From Lysobacter sp. S4-A87 (GTDB taxonomy: Bacteria; Pseudomonadota; Gammaproteobacteria; Xanthomonadales; Xanthomonadaceae), in contig NZ_CP093341.1 of the NCBI RefSeq assembly GCF_022637455.1, forward strand, positions 3,782,001 through 3,846,000: a DNA stretch of 64,000 nt. Reading direction: 5' to 3'. Below, in pieces: positions 27,925 to 50,499 of this stretch. The translations under genes were made by a program, and so were the position numbers. The notes beneath the pieces are model-generated. The model searched no databases, had not been told where the DNA came from, and was given only the letters and a program-made list of their open reading frames with translations. Each line of letters begins with the position of its first letter. The first letter of the stretch is position 1.

Positions 27925-30276
27925 TTACCGCGGCGACAGCTTCAGCGTATGCCGCGTCTCACCGGGCAGGAACGACGTCGGCCGGCCATGCACCCAGTCG
28001 TCATGACCGGCACCCCAGAACGGCGACATCAGGTGGCCGCTCTGTCCGCCCGGCATGTGGATGATGCCGTCGGCCTCGTGGCCCGGTGAAACCACCATGC
28101 GTTCGGACGCGCCGAAGTTCGGGCCCTGCACGCGCGGCATGCCGCTGTCGCCGGGCAACTCATCGGCCACCATGCACAGCGCCGGCTTGGCGAAGGCGGG
28201 CAGGGCGCGACTGAGCGGATGGCAGATCTTCGCGGTGTTGCGCTCGCCCCAGCTGCGCTGCGCGATCGGGCCCTTCTCCTGCAACTTGTCTCGCACTTCA
28301 AGCGCGGCATCCTCGAACAGCGCGTCCCACGATGCGAACCGGCGCGGCAGCAGGTTCGCCGGACGCTGGGTCACCAGCGGCCAGGCCACGCCTTCGAAGT
28401 GCGACAGGTTGGGCATCTGGAAGTCCTTGCCCAGCGCCGCCTGTGCCGGCGCGGTCAGGCCATCGAGCAGGCGATCGTGCACAGCCAGGCGCCAGGCGCG
28501 CACGACCCGGTAGCTCACCGAGTCGGTGCTGGCGTGGCCTTGCCAGGTCGGCGATGCCGCGGCGAGTTCGTGCAGCGCCGGTGACTTGTCCGAAGCCCCC
28601 GCGTCGCGCAGCAACTGCCACCAGCGGGTCAGGAACAGCGCGCGGTCGTCGAGCTGGATCGCCAGCAGGTCGCGCTCGCTGAAACGTTCCCGGGCAAACA
28701 GGTCGTCGCGAATCTGCCGCGCACGCGCGCCGTTGGCGTAGCCGCCGTCGCCGACGCGGGTGAGCAGTGCACCGTCGACGACGCGGGCGTTGGCAGACCA
28801 CATGCGCTGCACCGTGCCGGCCGGAAGGGCGATGCCCGATGCGGTGGTGATCGGCCACGGCGCACAGGTTGCCGCTTCGCTGACGGTGGTCGCCGTGCAG
28901 CTGGCCTGGCGCAGCGGCACCGGTCCGAGCAGGCGCCAGGTGATGCGGCCGTCGCGACCGCCGATGGCGAGGTTCTGTCCGGGGATCGCGGTGTGGTCGG
29001 CCATCTGCAACGCATCGTCGAGCGAGTTGGCGTGCAGGAAGTTCGCAAGTCCGATGTTCATCGAACCGGGCTGGTGCGCGACCCAGCGCAGGGCCAGGCC
29101 GCTGCCATCGGGCTGGCGGAACAGGATCGGGCCCCAGGCGGTTTCGTCCACCGGGAATTCGACATCGGCCTGGCCGGCGACACGGATGCGTTCGACGTGA
29201 CGGGTCACGCCCGCGCAGGGTTCGGCGCAGGCCGGCTGGCGCTGCCAGTCGAGCCAGTCGCCGTAGCTGTTGGTGAAGCCCCAGGCCACCTGGCCATTGC
29301 TGCCGACCACCAGCGCCGGCAGGCCGGGCAGGGTGAAGCCGGTGGCGTCGACGTGGCCGCCGACGGCGCGCGTGTCCGGGTAGCGCAGGCGTGCGCGGAA
29401 CCAGATGTTCGGCGCGCGCAGGCCCAGGTGCATGTCGTCGGCGACGATGGCGCGGCCGTCAGCGGTGAGCTGGCCGGAGACGGCGAAGTTGTTGCTGCCC
29501 ACGTCCGAGCGCTCGGGCACATTGGCCGGACGGTCGCTGGCGGATGGCATCGGCAGCGTCCGCAGGTCGAGCGTGGCCGCGTCGGGCAGGGTGGCGTCGC
29601 CGCGCGGCCTGCCGGCCAGCGGTGCATCCCAGCTGCTGCCGTCGTGGTCGAGCAGCGTGTACAGCGCTGCCGGCACGTGCGGCTTGAGCCTCCACATCGC
29701 CAGTTCGCGGGCGTTGCTGGCGTCCTGCAGGTCGAAGTACATGGCGTAGCCGGCCAGCGCCGAGTCTTCCAGGCGCCACGGCTCAGGCTGCGTGCGCAGC
29801 AGCAGGTAAGGCCACGGGCGCACCTTCAGAGCGGCCACCCCGGCATTGACGCCATCGACATAGGCCTGCGCCATCGGTCGCTTGTCGCCCAGGATTGCAT
29901 CGAGGTGGGCCGTCACGCGTGCGCGCATGCGGTGCACGCGACGCTGCTTGTCGGTATCGATTGCGGCCGCGCCGAACAGCGCCGACAGTTCGCCGGCCGA
30001 GGCGCGGCGCAGCAGGTCCATCTCGAAGTAGCGTTCCTGGCCATGGATGTAGCCGAGCGCGCGCATCGCATCGGTTTCATTGGCGGCATCGACGGTGACC
30101 ACGCCGAGCGCATCGCGCTGGATCGAAACCGGTGCCGACAGGCCGGGCAGGGCGAGTTCGCCGTCCAGGCTCGGCAGGCTGCCGCGCATCAGCCACCAGA
30201 TCGCCAGCGCGACTGCCACCAGCAACAGCAGCAGCACGAGCAGGCTGCGTTTGATCAGTTTCTTCATGGTCCCCAT
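27925..30276 (-). CDS. Penicillin acylase-family Ntn-hydrolase
   Basis: This ~783-residue envelope enzyme has an N-terminal membrane anchor or signal (LLVLLLLLVAVALAIWWLM). An alpha chain starts around ISIQRDALGVVTVDA-type sequence and contains ALGYIHGQERYFEMDLLRR. After the self-cleavage point, the beta chain begins at the nucleophile Ser in GSNNFAVSGQLTADGRAIVA, near residue 260. GANSWP-like Ntn features are replaced by GWGF-type text (NGQVAWGFTNSYGD). Relatives cleave penicillin G, aculeacin or acyl-homoserine lactones, so quorum-signal degradation is possible but not shown. ATG at 30267 is an alternative start. Confidence 0.88.
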   Translation of the reverse strand: MGTMKKLIKRSLLVLLLLLVAVALAIWWLMRGSLPSLDGELALPGLSAPVSIQRDALGVVTVDAANETDAMRALGYIHGQERYFEMDLLRRASAGELSALFGAAAIDTDKQRRVHRMRARVTAHLDAILGDKRPMAQAYVDGVNAGVAALKVRPWPYLLLRTQPEPWRLEDSALAGYAMYFDLQDASNARELAMWRLKPHVPAALYTLLDHDGSSWDAPLAGRPRGDATLPDAATLDLRTLPMPSASDRPANVPERSDVGSNNFAVSGQLTADGRAIVADDMHLGLRAPNIWFRARLRYPDTRAVGGHVDATGFTLPGLPALVVGSNGQVAWGFTNSYGDWLDWQRQPACAEPCAGVTRHVERIRVAGQADVEFPVDETAWGPILFRQPDGSGLALRWVAHQPGSMNIGLANFLHANSLDDALQMADHTAIPGQNLAIGGRDGRITWRLLGPVPLRQASCTATTVSEAATCAPWPITTASGIALPAGTVQRMWSANARVVDGALLTRVGDGGYANGARARQIRDDLFARERFSERDLLAIQLDDRALFLTRWWQLLRDAGASDKSPALHELAAASPTWQGHASTDSVSYRVVRAWRLAVHDRLLDGLTAPAQAALGKDFQMPNLSHFEGVAWPLVTQRPANLLPRRFASWDALFEDAALEVRDKLQEKGPIAQRSWGERNTAKICHPLSRALPAFAKPALCMVADELPGDSGMPRVQGPNFGASERMVVSPGHEADGIIHMPGGQSGHLMSPFWGAGHDDWVHGRPTSFLPGETRHTLKLSPR

Positions 30277-30399
30277 CGATGGTCTTGTTTCCCCGGCCTA
30301 GTTTGAGCGCAATTGGGTCATGCCGGGAGGCCCGGCGGGGGCGGGGCCCAAAAGGGGGAGGGGCTTGCAAGTGGCCACGACCTGACGCAGGATCGACCC
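30277..30399. other. Intergenic region between the acylase gene and the asnB leader
   Basis: Divergent promoters for the acylase gene (leftward) and the asnB leader (rightward) should lie here. The stretch is very G-rich around 30322-30362. I do not see a clear pair of promoter hexamers. Confidence 0.35.
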
Positions 30400-30519
30400 A
30401 TGACTTCCGTCCAGGCCCTCGCCCACGCCCGCAACGCCGCACTCCGCGGCGGCGCTCCCGTGGCCGGCCTGAACAATAACAATCGCAATAACGCCAGCCA
30501 CCCGCGGGCCGGCGATTAG
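30400..30519 (+). CDS. Asn-rich leader peptide of asnB
   Basis: This is a 39-codon frame, ATG at 30400 to TAG at 30517-30519, with a ribosome site (AGGA at 30389-30392, seven bases before the ATG). Codons 25-31 read AAC AAT AAC AAT CGC AAT AAC, so six of seven encode asparagine (NNNNRNN). A seventh Asn is at codon 12. It ends 28 bases before a terminator hairpin that precedes asnB. The position, length and codon run match classical leader peptides of amino-acid operons, in which scarcity of the charged tRNA stalls the ribosome. Translation of the peptide is inferred. Confidence 0.85.
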   Translation: MTSVQALAHARNAALRGGAPVAGLNNNNRNNASHPRAGD

Positions 30520-30574
30520 CGCGCGCAAGACACGCTAACTCGCTCACGAAGCCCGCGCCAAAAGCGCGGGCTTC
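30463..30574 (+). promoter_or_regulatory. Asparagine-responsive transcription attenuator of asnB
   Basis: Three competing pairings can be drawn. Segment 1 (30463-30471) pairs with segment 2 (30505-30513) in 9 bp and encloses the Asn codons. Segment 2 (30503-30509) alternatively pairs with segment 3 (30551-30557) in 7 all-GC pairs. Segment 3 pairs with segment 4 to form the terminator (30548-30558 with 30564-30574). A ribosome stalled on the Asn codons (30472-30492) would cover segment 1, free segment 2 to take segment 3, and let transcription reach asnB. With ample Asn-tRNA the ribosome reaches the stop codon, covers segment 2, and the terminator forms. Confidence 0.82.
30548..30574 (+). terminator. 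Attenuator terminator upstream of asnB
   Basis: An 11-bp stem (30548-30558 with 30564-30574, loop CAAAA) is followed by the T-rich TTCGTTTCT. It lies 48 bases before the asnB start and is the conditional stop of the leader. Confidence 0.88.
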
Positions 30575-30622
30575 TTCGTTTCTGCCTCCCCTTCCCCGAA
30601 GAACCCACCCAGGAGTCCTCCC

Positions 30623-32329
30623 ATGTGTTCCATCCTCGGCATATTCGGCCTGCAACCCGGTGACGACGTGCAGGCCCTGCGCCGGCGTGCACTGGAGCTG
30701 TCACAACGCCAGCGCCATCGCGGTCCCGACTGGAGCGGCGTGCACCTGGACGACCAGGTGATCCTCGTCCACGAGCGCCTGGCCATCGTCGATCCGGCCG
30801 GCGGTTCGCAGCCGCTGCACTCGGCAGACGGCGAACTGGCACTGGCCGTCAACGGCGAGATCTACAACCACCGCGAGCTCGAGCAGCGCCTGGCCGCGCC
30901 CTATGCATTCCAGTCCGGCTCGGACTGCGAAGTGATCAGCGCGCTTTACCGCGAGCGCGATGACATCGCCGCCTGGCTCAACGAGCTCAACGGCATCTTC
31001 GCGTTCGCGCTGTGGGATGCCGGCAGCAAGCGCTACCTGATTGCCCGCGACCCGATCGGCGTCTGCCCGCTGTACTGGGGACACGACCACGACGGGCGAC
31101 TGTGCGTGGCTTCGGAAATGAAAGCACTGGCCGATGTCTGCGCCGACGTCGCCCAGTTCCCGCCGGGACACTACTACGACAGCGCCAGTGGCGAGCTGGT
31201 GCGTTACTACATCAAGCCGTGGCGCGATTACGACGAGACGAAGGGCGTGGAAGTGGCGAAGCAGGAACTGCGCGAGGCCTTCGAACGTGCCGTGCACCGG
31301 CAGATGATGAGCGACGTGCCCTACGGCGTGCTGCTGTCGGGCGGTCTGGACTCGTCGCTCGTCGCCGCGGTCGCCGCGCGCTATGCGCGCAAGCGCATTG
31401 AGGACAACGATGCCAGCGAGGCCTGGTGGCCGCGCCTGCATTCCTTCGCGATCGGACTGGAGGGGTCGCCCGACCTGGCCGCGGCGGAGATCGCGGCGAA
31501 GGCCCTGGGCACGGTCCACCACGGCTTCACCTACACCTTCGAGGAAGGCCTGGATGCACTGCCGGAAGTGATCCGCCACATCGAGACCTACGACGTCACC
31601 ACGATCCGGGCCTCCACGCCGATGTTCCTGCTGGCGCGGCGGATCAAGGCGATGGGCGTGAAGATGGTGCTGTCGGGCGAGGGCAGCGACGAGATCTTCG
31701 GCGGCTACCTGTACTTCCACAAGGCGCCCAACGCACGCGAGTTCCATGAAGAGACCGTGCGCAAGATCGACGCCCTCTACAACTACGACTGCCTGCGCGC
31801 CAACAAGTCGATGATGGCCTGGGGCGTGGAGCCGCGCGTGCCGTTCCTCGATGTCGAGTTCCTCGACGTGGCGATGCGCATGGACGCGCAGTACAAGATG
31901 GCCGGGACCGGGCCGGATGGAAAGCGTCGCATCGAGAAGTCGATCCTGCGCGAAGCGTTCGACGGCTACCTGCCGGAGTCGATCCTGTGGCGGCAGAAGG
32001 AGCAGTTCAGCGACGGCGTCGGTTATGGCTGGATCGACGGCCTCAAGGCGCATGCGCAGGCGCAGGTCAGCGACCGCGTGTTCGCCGCGGCCGCCAGCCG
32101 CTTTCCCGTCAACCCGCCGCAGACGAAGGAGGCCTACCTGTACCGGCACGTGTTCGAGCAGTTCTTCCCGAGCGCCGCCTGTGCCGAGACGGTGCCCGGC
32201 GGCAAGTCGATCGCCTGCTCGTCACCGGCGGCGATCGCCTGGGACGCGGCATTCGCGACCATGGCCGATCCATCGGGCCGTGCGGTCGCGGGGGTGCATC
32301 AGGCCGCGCTCGGGCATGTGCCGGGATGA
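30623..32329 (+). CDS. asnB: Glutamine-hydrolysing asparagine synthetase B
   Basis: This 568-residue enzyme converts Asp, Gln and ATP to Asn. The N-terminal class II glutaminase domain uses Cys2 (MCSILGIFG) with RGPDWSG, HERLAIVDPAGGSQPL and VNGEIYNHREL. The synthetase domain has the pyrophosphate loop LLSGGLDSSLVAAV, then GEGSDEIFGGYLYFH and WGVEPRVPFLDVEFLDVAM. It is close to the E. coli AsnB length (554). Ribosome site AGGAG lies seven bases before the ATG. It is preceded by the Asn leader and attenuator, so its expression is probably tuned by the charged Asn-tRNA level. Confidence 0.96.
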   Translation: MCSILGIFGLQPGDDVQALRRRALELSQRQRHRGPDWSGVHLDDQVILVHERLAIVDPAGGSQPLHSADGELALAVNGEIYNHRELEQRLAAPYAFQSGSDCEVISALYRERDDIAAWLNELNGIFAFALWDAGSKRYLIARDPIGVCPLYWGHDHDGRLCVASEMKALADVCADVAQFPPGHYYDSASGELVRYYIKPWRDYDETKGVEVAKQELREAFERAVHRQMMSDVPYGVLLSGGLDSSLVAAVAARYARKRIEDNDASEAWWPRLHSFAIGLEGSPDLAAAEIAAKALGTVHHGFTYTFEEGLDALPEVIRHIETYDVTTIRASTPMFLLARRIKAMGVKMVLSGEGSDEIFGGYLYFHKAPNAREFHEETVRKIDALYNYDCLRANKSMMAWGVEPRVPFLDVEFLDVAMRMDAQYKMAGTGPDGKRRIEKSILREAFDGYLPESILWRQKEQFSDGVGYGWIDGLKAHAQAQVSDRVFAAAASRFPVNPPQTKEAYLYRHVFEQFFPSAACAETVPGGKSIACSSPAAIAWDAAFATMADPSGRAVAGVHQAALGHVPG

Positions 32330-32517: not shown

Positions 32518-32976
32518 TTACTTGGTGACCGTCAACTTGCCCTTCATCAGCATCGAGTGACCGGGGAAGCTGCAGAAGAACGTGTAATCGCCACCGGCCG
32601 TGAGCTTCTTGCCGGGAAAGCTGACTTTGATCTTCTCCCCGCCGCCGACCAGCGTCGTCGCGGCGATGACACGGGCATCGCCTTTGGTAACGTAGTTGTT
32701 CGCCACGCCGGCCTTGATGCCGTCGCGCGCGATTGCATCCATGTCCTTGGTCGCGCTGATGACCACGTTGTGGCCCATGGCCGCAGCCGGCAGCTTGCCG
32801 GCGTGTGTCAGTTCGACAGTGATGCTGGAGCAGGCGGCCGAGACGGTTGCCGTCTTCAGATCGAACTTCATTGCATCGTCGCCCTTGAGCGAAATAGTGC
32901 AGTTGCCGGCTGCCTGGGAAACGCCGGTCGCGCCGAGCAGTCCGAGGCAGAGCAGTGAGACGGAAAGGATCTTCAT
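32518..32976 (-). CDS. azu: Azurin (periplasmic blue copper electron carrier)
   Basis: This 152-residue cupredoxin has a signal peptide (MKILSVSLLCLGLLGATGVSQA). Mature azurin begins near AAGNCTISL. The type 1 copper ligands are present: His in MGHNVVISA, then Cys, His and Met in FFCSFPGHSMLMKG. The disulfide cysteines at its start (NCTISL, AACSSITV) match the family. ATG at 32976 follows an AGGAG site. It is last in the nirK-nirV-sco-azurin set and is the likely electron donor to the nitrite reductase. Confidence 0.95.
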   Translation of the reverse strand: MKILSVSLLCLGLLGATGVSQAAGNCTISLKGDDAMKFDLKTATVSAACSSITVELTHAGKLPAAAMGHNVVISATKDMDAIARDGIKAGVANNYVTKGDARVIAATTLVGGGEKIKVSFPGKKLTAGGDYTFFCSFPGHSMLMKGKLTVTK

Positions 32977-33009
32977 GGGCAACTCCTGGGGGATGGGATG
33001 GACGGGTCG

Positions 33010-33597
33010 TCAGGGCGAAGCAGCGAGGTACTTCTTCACTTCGGCGACGAATTCCGGATCGGGCTGCAGGTCGGTGACTCCGCTGCGGGCGAGGATGCGG
33101 CCGTCGCGGTCGAGCAGGATCAGCGTACTGGTGTGGTTGAAGGTTCCGTCGGGCTGGGCGCGATAACGGATGTCCAGCACTGCAGCCAGCGTACGCACGT
33201 CAGCGTCGAGCGGGCGCAACAGGCGCCACCGCGGGTCCAGGTGGTGGGCCTCGGCCACGGCCCGCAGTGCGGCCGGTGTGTCACGCGCCGGATCGATGCT
33301 GAGCACAGCAAGGTCCAAGGCGTCGCGGTCGCTGGCGGAGAGCTGCGACTGCAGCGCCTTGCCGCTGCCGATGATGAGCGGGCACATCAAATGGCAGTTG
33401 CTGTAGAACATCGACACCACGACCGGCCGGCCGCGCAGGTCCTGCCAGGCGAGGCTGCGGCCGTTCTGGTCGGTCAGCGCTGCTGCCGCCTGGTAGACAG
33501 AATCTCCAGGAAGCTCGTTGGCGGTGGCAAGCGAAGACATCGAGGAAAGCAGCCCCGCTACGACGCTCAGAACACGACCGCCCAAGGCAGGTCTCAT
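33010..33597 (-). CDS. SCO1/SenC/PrrC-family copper chaperone
   Basis: This 195-residue thioredoxin-fold protein has a signal peptide ending near ATANELPG. The copper ligands are the paired Cys in FYSNCHLMCPLI (CxxxC) and the distant His in GTFNHTSTLILLD. Family members deliver copper to cytochrome oxidase or act as thiol reductases. Here, between nirV and azurin and downstream of nirK, a role in loading copper into NirK or azurin is likely. The start overlaps the nirV stop by four bases. Confidence 0.9.
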   Translation of the reverse strand: MRPALGGRVLSVVAGLLSSMSSLATANELPGDSVYQAAAALTDQNGRSLAWQDLRGRPVVVSMFYSNCHLMCPLIIGSGKALQSQLSASDRDALDLAVLSIDPARDTPAALRAVAEAHHLDPRWRLLRPLDADVRTLAAVLDIRYRAQPDGTFNHTSTLILLDRDGRILARSGVTDLQPDPEFVAEVKKYLAASP

Positions 33598-34355
33598 GGT
33601 CGACTCCTGGCGCAGCGAAAGCCGAGGTTGCCCAGCGTGCTGCGCGGTTGCATGGCCGACAACAGGGCCACGCGCTTGAGCGCGGCATAGTCGTCGCGGT
33701 TGTTGAAGGAAAGACCGGTGGCGCCACAGAACTGCAGCCGGTCGCCGTCATCGGCGCCGCGCTTGTCGCTGTCGCCCAGCAGCGTGGAGAAGTCGCCGAC
33801 CCATTCCCATGACGCGCCGTGAAGCCCGTGGACGCCGTAGGCATTGGCAGGCGAGTCGCCGGCCGCATCGACCGCGCGTGCGGTACCGTCGGCAAACAGA
33901 CGCTTGCGCCAGGCCGGATCATGGCGGGCATCGTGCCGTTGAGTGTCGGCCGCGGCTACGTACTCCCATTCCGCCCAGTCCGGCAGGCGTGCCTGCTGCG
34001 CCTTGCAATAGGCATCCACGGCAAACCAGCTGACGCGCGTTACCGGGCGGTCCGCATCCAGCGGCTCGGGCGCGCCGGCCGCCCGCCAATGCAACAAGTA
34101 GCCCGAGTCGGCGAACAATGCCGGAACGCGATCTCGGCGCCAGTGCGGGTGCTGCTGGACGAACGCCTGGAACTCCCGGTTGCTGACCGCACGCTGCATC
34201 AGAGCGAAGTCGGCGACCACGCGATTGCCGTCATTGCCCTCGTGACGGATCGTCGAGCGGAACGCAGCGCCGGGGATCTCCATATACGTGGCCTGCGATG
34301 TTGCCGGCGACGAAGTCGCCAGCAACACGAACCAGAGCGTGGTGGACGTGAGCAT
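33594..34355 (-). CDS. nirV: NirV-like formylglycine-generating-enzyme (SUMF1) family protein
   Basis: This 253-residue protein has a signal peptide (about 1-20) followed by a SUMF1/FGE-sulfatase fold: MQRAVSNREFQAFVQQHP, RPVTRVSWFAVDAYCKAQQ, RLPDWAEWEYVAAA, YGVHGLHGASWEWVGDF and C-terminal LGFRCARSR. No sulfatase lies nearby. FGE-like genes of this kind accompany copper nitrite reductase genes and are named nirV; their function is unproven. It begins 20 bases after nirK and overlaps sco, so it is co-transcribed. Confidence 0.85.
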   Translation of the reverse strand: MLTSTTLWFVLLATSSPATSQATYMEIPGAAFRSTIRHEGNDGNRVVADFALMQRAVSNREFQAFVQQHPHWRRDRVPALFADSGYLLHWRAAGAPEPLDADRPVTRVSWFAVDAYCKAQQARLPDWAEWEYVAAADTQRHDARHDPAWRKRLFADGTARAVDAAGDSPANAYGVHGLHGASWEWVGDFSTLLGDSDKRGADDGDRLQFCGATGLSFNNRDDYAALKRVALLSAMQPRSTLGNLGFRCARSRP

Positions 34356-34375
34356 GGTGGCTCTGCGCGTCGCCG

Positions 34376-35452
34376 TCAGTGGCCGGAACTAGCCGGCGGC
34401 GAGTACTCCTGGTTCGACTGCTGCCCGGTGTAGATGGACGCGTCCTTCTCGCCGTCGACCTTGAGGATTCCGAGCGTGCCCTTGTGGAACGTACGGAAGA
34501 TGCTGTGGTCGACGAGGATGTAGTTGCCCGGCACGTCGGTCTTGAACTCGATCATGGCCGAGCCACCGGCGGGCACCAGCGTGGTCTGCACGTTTTCCTG
34601 GTACTTGCTTCCGCCTTCGGTATAGACCTTGTCGAAGATCTCGCCGATCACGTGGAAGCTCGACACCAGGTTCGGGCCGCCGTTGCCGACGAACAGGCGC
34701 ACGGTCTCGCCGGCCTTGGCGGCCAGTGCCTTGTCGCCCGTCAGTGAACCTTCTGCGCCGTTGAAGAGTACGTAGGTCGGATGCTCGTCGATGGCCTTCT
34801 CGAGACTGAAGGGTTGCAGGCCGGGTTCGCCGTACTTGCCCTCGGTGTAGAAGTCGCCCTGCATGACGTAGTACTCCTTGTCTACCTTGGGTAATCCCTG
34901 CGACGGCTCCACCAGGATCAGGCCATACATGCCGTTGGCGATGTGCATGCCGACCGGTGGCATCGCGCAGTGATAGACGTACAGGCCCGGATTCAGAGCC
35001 TTGAAGGTGAACTTCGTCTGGTGGCCCGGCAGCGTCAACGTCGCCTCCGCACCACCGCCGGTACCGGTGACGGCATGCAGGTCGATGTTGTGCGGCATGT
35101 GTGAGTCGTGTGCATTCTTCAGGTTGAACTCGACCGTGTCGCCCTGGCGCACCCGGATGAAGCTGCCGGGAACGGTCCCGCCGAATGTCCAGAAGTTGTA
35201 GGTGACGCCGGTGGAGATCGGCATCTCCTTCTCGACCACTTCCAGTTCGACGATCACCTTGGCCGGTGCGGTACGGTTGGTCGGTGGCGGTACCATCGGG
35301 GGTGAAGTCAGCACGGCCTTGATGGGCTCGCCCAACGTCGCGTCCGCGTGGTTCGCCGCTGCGCGGCTGGACGCTGCGATGGCAACCGGTGCGCCGACGC
35401 CGAAGGCGCAAACGAGTGCATGGAACAGCAGGTGATGAGATACACGACTCAT
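34376..35452 (-). CDS. nirK: Copper-containing nitrite reductase, AniA-like (class II)
   Basis: This 358-residue periplasmic enzyme reduces nitrite to nitric oxide. After the signal peptide (to about VAIAA) come two cupredoxin domains. Copper ligands are visible: type 1 His and type 2 His in [12 protein letters not shown]; His-Cys plus distal His and Met in [20 protein letters not shown]; and a C-terminal type 2 His in [13 protein letters not shown]. The short loop before GMHIANGM is typical of AniA-like enzymes. ATG at 35452 is preferred to an upstream frame extension. An FNR-like box lies 69 bases upstream. Confidence 0.95.
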
Positions 35453-35820
35453 GTTTGACTGCCTTGCCAATGGCCTTGGGGCCGATGGCGGCAAGGTAGT
35501 CCCCGGATCACTTGTTCGCCTTGATCAATGTCAAACCAGCCAGCGCGGGCGGGTCGGCTGAAGATCGTCAACAAGTATCGAGCCGGGAAGCTGGACAAGC
35601 AGGATTCAACTGCTCGACGCGGGCCCCGATCGCAGTCGCGCCGGCAGCTACCTGACTGGTCGCCATCGCCACCGAGACAATGGGGGGCGGGTACATCGCA
35701 CCGGCGACTTACCGGTTCTGCGACGGCTGGAATTGTGCGACGTCGGCGCTGATCGTGGTCGACGGGCACGCCCGCATGCGCTGGCGTCACCGAAGTGGTG
35801 ACGCCAGGCAGCGTTGACGG
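35453..35820. other. Intergenic region between nirK and fabB
   Basis: These 368 bases hold the nirK promoter region with an FNR-like box at 35521-35534. The remainder, up to the fabB stop at 35821, shows no gene. A small bidirectional hairpin could be drawn near 35795-35815, but it is unconvincing. Confidence 0.45.
35521..35534 (-). promoter_or_regulatory. FNR-type binding site upstream of nirK
   Basis: TTGATCAATGTCAA matches TTGAT-N4-ATCAA in nine of ten defined bases. It lies 69 bases before the nirK ATG, a normal place for an activator site. An FNR-type regulator gene lies 4 kb away in the same module. Confidence 0.8.
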
Positions 35821-50381: not shown

Positions 50382-50433
50382 CGGTTACGTGCCGGACAGA
50401 TCGCCCGTGGTACCGTGCGGCCCACATCAGGAA

Positions 50434-50477
50434 GCGGGGACGACCCCGCCTCTCCATCATCGCAAGGGGACGGCCCC
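50434..50477 (+). ncRNA. Guanidine-II (mini-ykkC) riboswitch
   Basis: Two small hairpins have the diagnostic ACGR loops. Hairpin 1 (50434-50449) has stem GCGGGG/CCCCGC with loop ACGA. Hairpin 2 (50466-50477) has stem GGGG/CCCC with loop ACGG. They are 16 bases apart and end 22 bases before the gdx ATG, with the ribosome site between. Guanidinium binding to both loops exposes the ribosome site in this class. The motif and the downstream gene agree perfectly. Confidence 0.92.
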
Positions 50478-50499
50478 ACCTTGGATTGGAGACGTTGTC

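Follow-up and report, generated by a model that had tools for sequence, protein, structure and literature searches.

The window, i.e. the whole stretch of 64,000 nucleotides of Lysobacter sp. S4-A87 DNA analysed here, carries the gene asnB on its forward strand. A short open reading frame (ORF) with clustered asparagine codons and a hairpin followed by a T-rich tract lie directly upstream. The elements of this region are as follows.

30365-30370, forward strand: -35 element TTGCAA, part of a promoter pattern conserved ahead of the leaders.
30388-30393, forward strand: -10 element CAGGAT, 17 nt after the -35 element and 6 nt before the leader ATG.
30400-30519, forward strand: leader ORF of 39 codons, ATG to TAG, with the peptide MTSVQALAHARNAALRGGAPVAGLNNNNRNNASHPRAGD; its position ahead of asnB is conserved.
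30472-30492, forward strand: control codons AAC AAT AAC AAT CGC AAT AAC, six Asn in seven codons.
30503-30509, forward strand: arm 2, CGCGGGC, in the last codons of the leader ORF, with full pairing to GCCCGCG at 30551-30557.
30510-30548, forward strand: predicted inner stem of the antiterminator (30510-30521 with 30533-30548), which includes the stop codon.
30548-30558, forward strand: arm 3, GAAGCCCGCGC, common to antiterminator and terminator.
30564-30574, forward strand: arm 4, GCGCGGGCTTC, forming 11 bp with arm 3.
30575-30582, forward strand: T-rich terminator tail, TTCGTTTC, directly 3' of arm 4.
30611-30615, forward strand: Shine-Dalgarno (SD) sequence AGGAG of asnB, as read from the sequence.
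30623-32329, forward strand: asnB, asparagine synthase B (NCBIfam NF006949, 868.7 bits, cut-off 499).

The leader ORF ends, by sequence and translation, with a TAG codon at 30517-30519. A preliminary description of this DNA had reported a 39-codon frame with six Asn codons in a run of seven, and its coordinates and codons agree with the sequence. The asnB leader thereby has the cluster of end-product codons in a short ORF that is expected of an attenuator. The frequency of such clusters was determined in 864 kb, comprising the window and two 400-kb runs (both strands, ~22% of the genome). Among 9,951 ORFs of 12-60 aa, the best eight codons contained 3 Asn in 41 cases, 4 in four, 5 in one and 6 in one, and the single ORF with 6 Asn in 8 codons was the asnB leader. 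The sole ORF with 5 Asn had no terminator downstream, and a second Asn leader was not found within the sampled 864 kb. No Asn run was present in the 60 bases inspected upstream of asnS. The AsnB protein itself contains 9 Asn among its 568 residues. In 60 representative leaders, Asn accounted for 294 of 660 residues located 9-19 codons before the stop, compared to 66 of 1,294 in the rest of the leader (fractions of 0.445 and 0.051, respectively); the corresponding fractions were 0.155 and 0.147 for Arg and lower for all other residues. The share of AAT among Asn codons was 366/807 in the leaders of 132 loci and 55/348 in asnB of the named loci.

By its family assignment, the downstream gene makes the amino acid that the leader would sense. 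A search of the own genome with AsnB revealed one full-length copy; two other genes match over part of their length, at 37-38% identity. Asparaginyl-tRNA synthetase (TIGR00457) was found over cut-off in 38 of 39 genomes, including Lysobacter sp. S4-A87, so that charged tRNA-Asn can report free asparagine. The ammonia-using AsnA (TIGR00669) reached its cut-off in none of the 39 genomes, Lysobacter sp. S4-A87 among them. A second asparagine-synthase-like gene of 652 codons (own genome, 188966 onward) passes TIGR01536 (469.1 bits, cut-off 267.1), so that asnB may not be the sole synthetase. This paralogue fails the AsnB model NF006949 (272.8 against 499 bits); judged by its sequence it may also make Asn. 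By E-value it comes closest to the model of an XrtA/PEP-CTERM amidotransferase, whose cut-off it does not reach. Downstream of asnB, the minus-strand region 32518-35494 of the window contains an azurin gene (TIGR02695) and, beside it, frames that by eye resemble an SCO1-type protein (no NCBIfam match), a formylglycine-generating enzyme and a copper nitrite reductase, all converging on asnB.

The terminator that had been placed between the leader ORF and the asparagine synthetase gene was recovered by a scan of 29900-31200. A single terminator-like site was found (0.6 expected), a hairpin at 30548-30574 whose stem of 11 bp closes a loop of 5 bases and runs into TTCGTTTC; it ends 48 bases before the asnB ATG. 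The fold predicted for 30530-30582 has an energy of -24.5 kcal/mol (z -4.68 versus shuffles), and sequence and fold by themselves thus place an intrinsic terminator between the ORF and the structural gene. Arm 2 offers a competing helix with arm 3 (2:3). Together with the inner stem, this antiterminator is predicted to fold over 30504-30563 with -26.2 kcal/mol, a stability about that of the terminator. The energy of 2:3 in the window was equalled by 40 of 200 shuffled tails, i.e. it is not unusual there, because the GC-rich tail readily pairs. Three mutually exclusive pairings had been drawn for this RNA. Two of them, 2:3 and the terminator helix 3:4, are retained in relatives and show co-change, as described below. 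The third, a protector pairing 1:2 (30463-30471 with 30505-30513), is not supported: eight of its nine positions pair, one of them as G-U, and it is absent from the minimum-energy fold of 30400-30546. Across the relatives, as long as arm 3 has yet to be transcribed, arm 2 finds an upstream partner in 125 of 132 loci versus 116 of 132 after shuffling of the upstream codons, a chance level that gives no sign of a selected protector.

In order to analyze the conservation of the leader, we collected 80 AsnB loci from named species genomes, 29 from the genus and family and 80 chosen over genera of the family and order. The latter 109 loci are a non-random sample, being the best-scoring 29 and 80 picked for genus spread from the matches listed. 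A locus was scored as having a leader if a 12-60 aa ORF held two or more Asn within 8 codons and a terminator lay 10-75 nt past its stop. Two Vibrio rows that passed this loose filter were removed by hand, as by eye they were tails of upstream genes. Ten loci with a leader region identical to that of another locus were dropped from the geometry, shuffle and folding counts and restored for the occurrence counts; nine of them repeat a named record. One further locus, L067, was removed after the geometry measurement.

A leader and a terminator precede asnB in 41 of the 44 named loci whose AsnB is at least 73% identical. The three misses come from assemblies labelled Holophagales, Rhodococcus and Deltaproteobacteria and have different upstream DNA. 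The leader and terminator were also present in 99 of the 109 further loci of the order (nine of these repeat named records), and the ten misses are the ten loci taken from one other family of the order. In these loci asnB stands without a leader; in several of them an upstream ORF ends 8-22 bases before the gene, an operon-like arrangement. Leader-bearing genera include Lysobacter, Luteimonas, Xanthomonas, Stenotrophomonas, Pseudoxanthomonas, Thermomonas, Arenimonas, Dyella, Rhodanobacter, Frateuria and Fulvimonas. Among named loci with AsnB less than 73% identical, many of them from Vibrio, Photobacterium and Rheinheimera, a leader was found in 2 of 36. One of these, from a Lysobacterales bin (L051), is convincing; the other, from a Rubrivirga-labelled bin (L067), is doubtful. 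L067 has a leader reading ..RNLTNANRNPV.. and a strong terminator, and its arm 2 pairing is no better than shuffles (103/200); it may be an Asn leader of separate origin, an ORF that arose by chance, or part of a contig assigned to the wrong bin. Two loci of the same group that have no leader presumably belong to the order, going by label or taxonomy. A scan of the class says little beyond the order, because only 4 of 232 genomes had AsnB at E 1e-150 or better, three of them in the family of Lysobacter sp. S4-A87. In the family scan, 27 of 297 genomes were without AsnB at E 1e-100.

At least 3 Asn in 8 codons were present in 132 of 133 distinct leaders and at least 5 in 90 of 133. The leader of L109 has at most 2 Asn in any 8 codons. 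It is one of eight loci of one genus whose leaders are Xanthomonas-like and keep the hairpins but have fewer clustered Asn codons (2-4 in 8), and perhaps represent a weakening sensor. The first half of the peptide is variable in length and sequence, and the chosen frames range from 20 to 46 codons. Conservation in relatives had been named beforehand as a test of the attenuator reading. In the sequences compared, the Asn codons, 2:3 and 3:4 are kept in three family groups of the order while the peptides diverge.

The spacing of the elements was measured in 133 loci, where "last Asn" denotes the last Asn codon at least 8 codons before the stop. The distance from the first base of this codon to arm 2 has a median of 13 nt (middle 80% 11-19, extremes 2 and 32), and the distance from arm 2 to the stop codon a median of 7 nt (middle 80% 5-14, extremes 2 and 24). 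The terminator begins 19-36 nt after the stop codon (median 26). The 2:3 helix is 5-12 bp long and is unusual compared to shuffled tails (0.05 or less) in 87 of the 133 loci only. An alignment, RNAalifold and a covariance model were based on 60 of the 132 loci that are less than 80% alike, and an AsnB tree on 47 rows. In the 60 rows, 72.4% of cells are paired for the antiterminator (29.7-43.3% after a shift by 1-3 columns, 65.6% after shuffling) and 89.9% for the terminator (23.2-50.6% and 80.9%, respectively). An inner stem comparable to that of the window is paired in 56.3% of cells only, aligned columns outside the hairpin arms are variable, and RNAalifold predicted the terminator alone. 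Doubly changed pairs and further pair types showed no clear excess over shuffles for either helix in these rows.

Further support for the antiterminator is provided by a single pair that changes on both sides. Column 35 in the leader and column 96 in arm 3 are G-C in 57 rows and A-U in 3; the same arm-3 base forms C-G in 57 rows and U-G in 3 within the terminator (96 with 113). In the alignment, the change of C to U in arm 3 together with G to A in the leader suits 2:3, where it gives a Watson-Crick pair, and leaves a G-U wobble in 3:4. All ten of the 132 loci with GCCTGC in arm 3 have CAGGC in the leader, which places Gln for Arg in the peptide. The sole such mismatch among the 132 loci is L154, with GCAGGC in the tail and CCCGC in arm 3, where the chosen arm 2 lies further on; one other locus shows a like co-change at another pair. 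On the AsnB protein tree of 47 rows, both bases agree throughout (9 with both, 38 with neither). The best AsnB tree calls for five or more changes of each base, and the changes coincide. Four independent co-changed pairs on supported branches all agree, and the statistics are modest (sign test 0.125) because with only four such pairs the value cannot fall lower. The pairing that excludes the terminator is thus kept by co-change, with this modest statistical weight.

We noticed a promoter abutting the leader ATG, a feature added by the present analysis and unmentioned in the preliminary description. In relatives, TTGCnn is separated from a -10 hexamer by a spacer of mostly 17-18 nt, and the hexamer lies mostly 6-7 nt before the ATG; the gap between the -10 element and the start is 6 nt in 70 of 97 matched leaders and 7 nt in 20. 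A strict pattern (TTG plus 3 nt, a spacer of 16-19 nt, a hexamer [TC]A...T, a gap of 5-7 nt and a start codon) matched 95 of 132 leaders versus 42 of 21,658 ATGs of the Lysobacter sp. S4-A87 genome, and a loose pattern 124 of 132 versus 271 of 21,658, with the leaders somewhat favoured as any in-frame ATG or GTG start was allowed for them. A sigma-70 scan of 29900-31200 did not report the leader promoter, and the elements in the window are a weak match to the consensus. Transcription in bacteria begins ~6-9 nt after the -10 element. Because the conserved promoter abuts the ATG, the predicted transcript start lies at or beside the A of this codon, and the leader is probably a leaderless mRNA. 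An SD-like motif precedes asnB in 121 of 132 loci. Before the leader it was found in 34 of 97, and in 3 of 97 once the -10 sequence CAGGAT was set aside. The AGGA inside CAGGAT (the window and 31 leaders) is a possible SD site if the RNA began further upstream, and the leaderless reading hence rests on the loci with other -10 sequences.

The covariance model built from the Asn leaders (60 loci), termed R1, was also used for searches. The asnB leader scores 64.3 bits. R1 is not specific, with matches of E 0.001 or better in 104 of the 349 genomes searched in the phylum; scores above 60 bits occurred in seven genomes only, all of this order. The third match in the own genome (31 bits, L241, ~1824360) is a leader reading ..ALILVLVLITG.. 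with a terminator before the dihydroxy-acid dehydratase gene (ilvD). By its anatomy it is an internal positive control, a classical branched-chain leader present in this genome, and its kin are secondary R1 matches in four other genomes. Of 19 weaker R1 matches that were opened, five including L241 are branched-chain leaders; no Asn-rich frame was seen in the inspected parts of the other 14, and in four of these no terminator was seen there. By eye, the promoter abuts the leader ATG in L241 and three of the other branched-chain leaders, so a leaderless start may be common among the leaders of these bacteria. Rfam at gathering thresholds yielded just tRNA and guanidine-II over the window, both elsewhere, and a riboswitch or T-box was rejected. 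The guanidine-II riboswitch (mini-ykkC) lies at window positions 50432-50478 (47.3 bits). Below gathering, the matches at the leader were Leu_leader (RF00512, 29.7 of 50 bits), Thr_leader (RF00506, 22.1 of 55 bits) and a chance snoRNA match.

The switch was then modelled by folding, with a ribosome footprint of 13 nt assumed from the first base of the A-site codon and pairing called at a probability of at least 0.5. As long as arm 4 is not yet made, 2:3 is predicted in 123 of 132 loci for a ribosome on the first Asn codon of the cluster and in 121 for one on the last. Once the ribosome occupies the stop codon, the antiterminator forms in 0 of 132 loci, by construction because the model removes arm 2 there, and the terminator in all 132 when arm 4 is present. 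The spacing and the model agree that a stalled ribosome would free arm 2 and a ribosome at the stop codon would hide it. At equilibrium with arm 4, the terminator attains a probability of 0.5 in 123 of 132 loci even if the ribosome sits on the last Asn codon, and in 104 of 132 if it sits on the first; since the terminator usually wins, antitermination would rest on co-transcriptional timing. Similar computations for Escherichia coli gave an antiterminator probability of 0.71 (stalled) and 0.01 (at the stop) for trpL; for thrL it was 0.58 with the ribosome on the first key codon and 0.39 with it on the last, and 0.0 at the stop. In both E. coli leaders the terminator likewise wins at equilibrium, a behavior like that of the asnB leader. 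The E. coli hisL terminator was missed by the detector used.

These results indicate that the asnB leader is very probably a ribosome-mediated transcription attenuator sensing asparagine. Transcription would start with the A of the leader ATG or a base adjoining it, and a ribosome would load on the bare 5' end. With ample Asn-tRNA, the ribosome would reach the stop codon and cover arm 2, and arms 3 and 4 would terminate transcription before asnB. When Asn-tRNA is scarce, the ribosome would stall on the clustered Asn codons, which lie mostly 9-19 codons ahead of the stop. Its front edge would then leave arm 2 just clear to pair with arm 3 before arm 4 exists, and with 2:3 formed the RNA polymerase would read through into asnB. 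An Asn-rich leader and a terminator stand before asnB in the own genome and in most relatives examined, so asnB is probably induced by stalling of Asn-starved ribosomes. The anatomy, its conservation and the co-changes are seen in the sequences and strongly suggest the stalling and the response to asparagine; the start point is predicted from the conserved promoter. It is quite possible, short of likely, that most of the order shares a pared-down Asn attenuator, a leaderless mRNA with no protector stem, in which prompt loading of a ribosome at the 5' end replaces 1:2.

The leader could be a translation-dependent attenuator that answers a general slow-down of translation or the nitrogen state more than asparagine. 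Initiation on leaderless mRNA is sensitive to how the ribosome pool stands, and for RNA without a ribosome the model predicts antitermination in 96 of 132 loci as long as arm 4 is absent; nevertheless, what is enriched 9-19 codons ahead of the stop is Asn (0.445 versus 0.051), and we regard this explanation as unlikely. Still less probable is that the ORF encodes a working small protein, with the hairpin as its terminator and an asnB promoter after the hairpin. The ORF is conserved in place, similar-looking terminators are common, and the opened R1 matches mostly resemble terminators at gene ends. However, the frames vary from 20 to 46 codons and their first half is little conserved, while the Asn codons and the paired 3' nucleotides persist, and the arm 2 codon switches between Arg and Gln together with a base outside the ORF. 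The 48 bases between terminator and asnB have no sigma-70 site, in a scan that also misses the leader promoter. Direct binding of asparagine or another ligand to the RNA (a riboswitch or T-box, the ORF being incidental) would also use the alternative terminator and antiterminator, but it is the least probable reading, as no such family matches at the site, the highest Rfam scores below threshold belong to the leaders of the Leu and Thr operons, columns outside the hairpin arms are variable and the Asn codons would be unexplained.

The preliminary description had supposed that attenuation of asnB might be new. No description of Asn or asnB leader attenuation was found among the matches listed in open full text, nor was an asnB leader described among the matches listed for leaderless starts and Xanthomonas. 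The abstract of the proteobacterial survey of Vitreschak 2004 reportedly lists branched-chain amino acids, His, Thr, Trp and Phe only. To our knowledge, no specific control of asnB was known before in the order (Xanthomonas, Stenotrophomonas, Lysobacter, Rhodanobacter, Dyella). The word "asparagine" is absent from the main text of Naville 2010 (PMC2965389), of the uORF4u paper (PMC10219788) and of an actinobacterial survey (PMC1262725). Asparagine is thus a specificity for classical leader-peptide attenuation without earlier description in the literature searched, and an earlier mention is possible. With the asnB leader, asparagine would join the amino acids that are sensed through a ribosome stalled in a leader ORF, and asnB would have a specific control across a large order. 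The leaderless, protector-free layout would, if true, show how little an attenuator needs.

Compared with known systems, the asnB leader is like the trp, his, thr, leu, ilv and phe attenuators in having a run of end-product codons in a short ORF, an intrinsic terminator and a competing antiterminator, with the position of the ribosome deciding between them. It is unlike them in its amino acid, Asn, in its target, a single amidotransferase gene, and in having no clear protector and probably no SD sequence. The Asn-specific T-boxes of Firmicutes also control asparagine genes by tRNA charging; there the tRNA binds the RNA directly, whereas no T-box match is present here. The ilvD leader of the own genome and its kin likewise have a leader ORF, a terminator and, by eye, a promoter at the ATG, and differ in having Leu, Ile and Val codons; given this shared layout, these bacteria may build their attenuators as leaderless mRNAs in general. 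A parallel for the start is trpL/rnTrpL of Sinorhizobium meliloti: according to passages of the report on this RNA (PMC7298713), the 5' end of the attenuator RNA is the ATG of the leader ORF, i.e. it is a leaderless mRNA, and action in trans was shown. The asnB leader would share the ATG at the 5' end, as predicted from promoter conservation, and differs in having Asn where rnTrpL has Trp. By analogy with rnTrpL, its terminated leader RNA of ~180 nt could act in trans as well.
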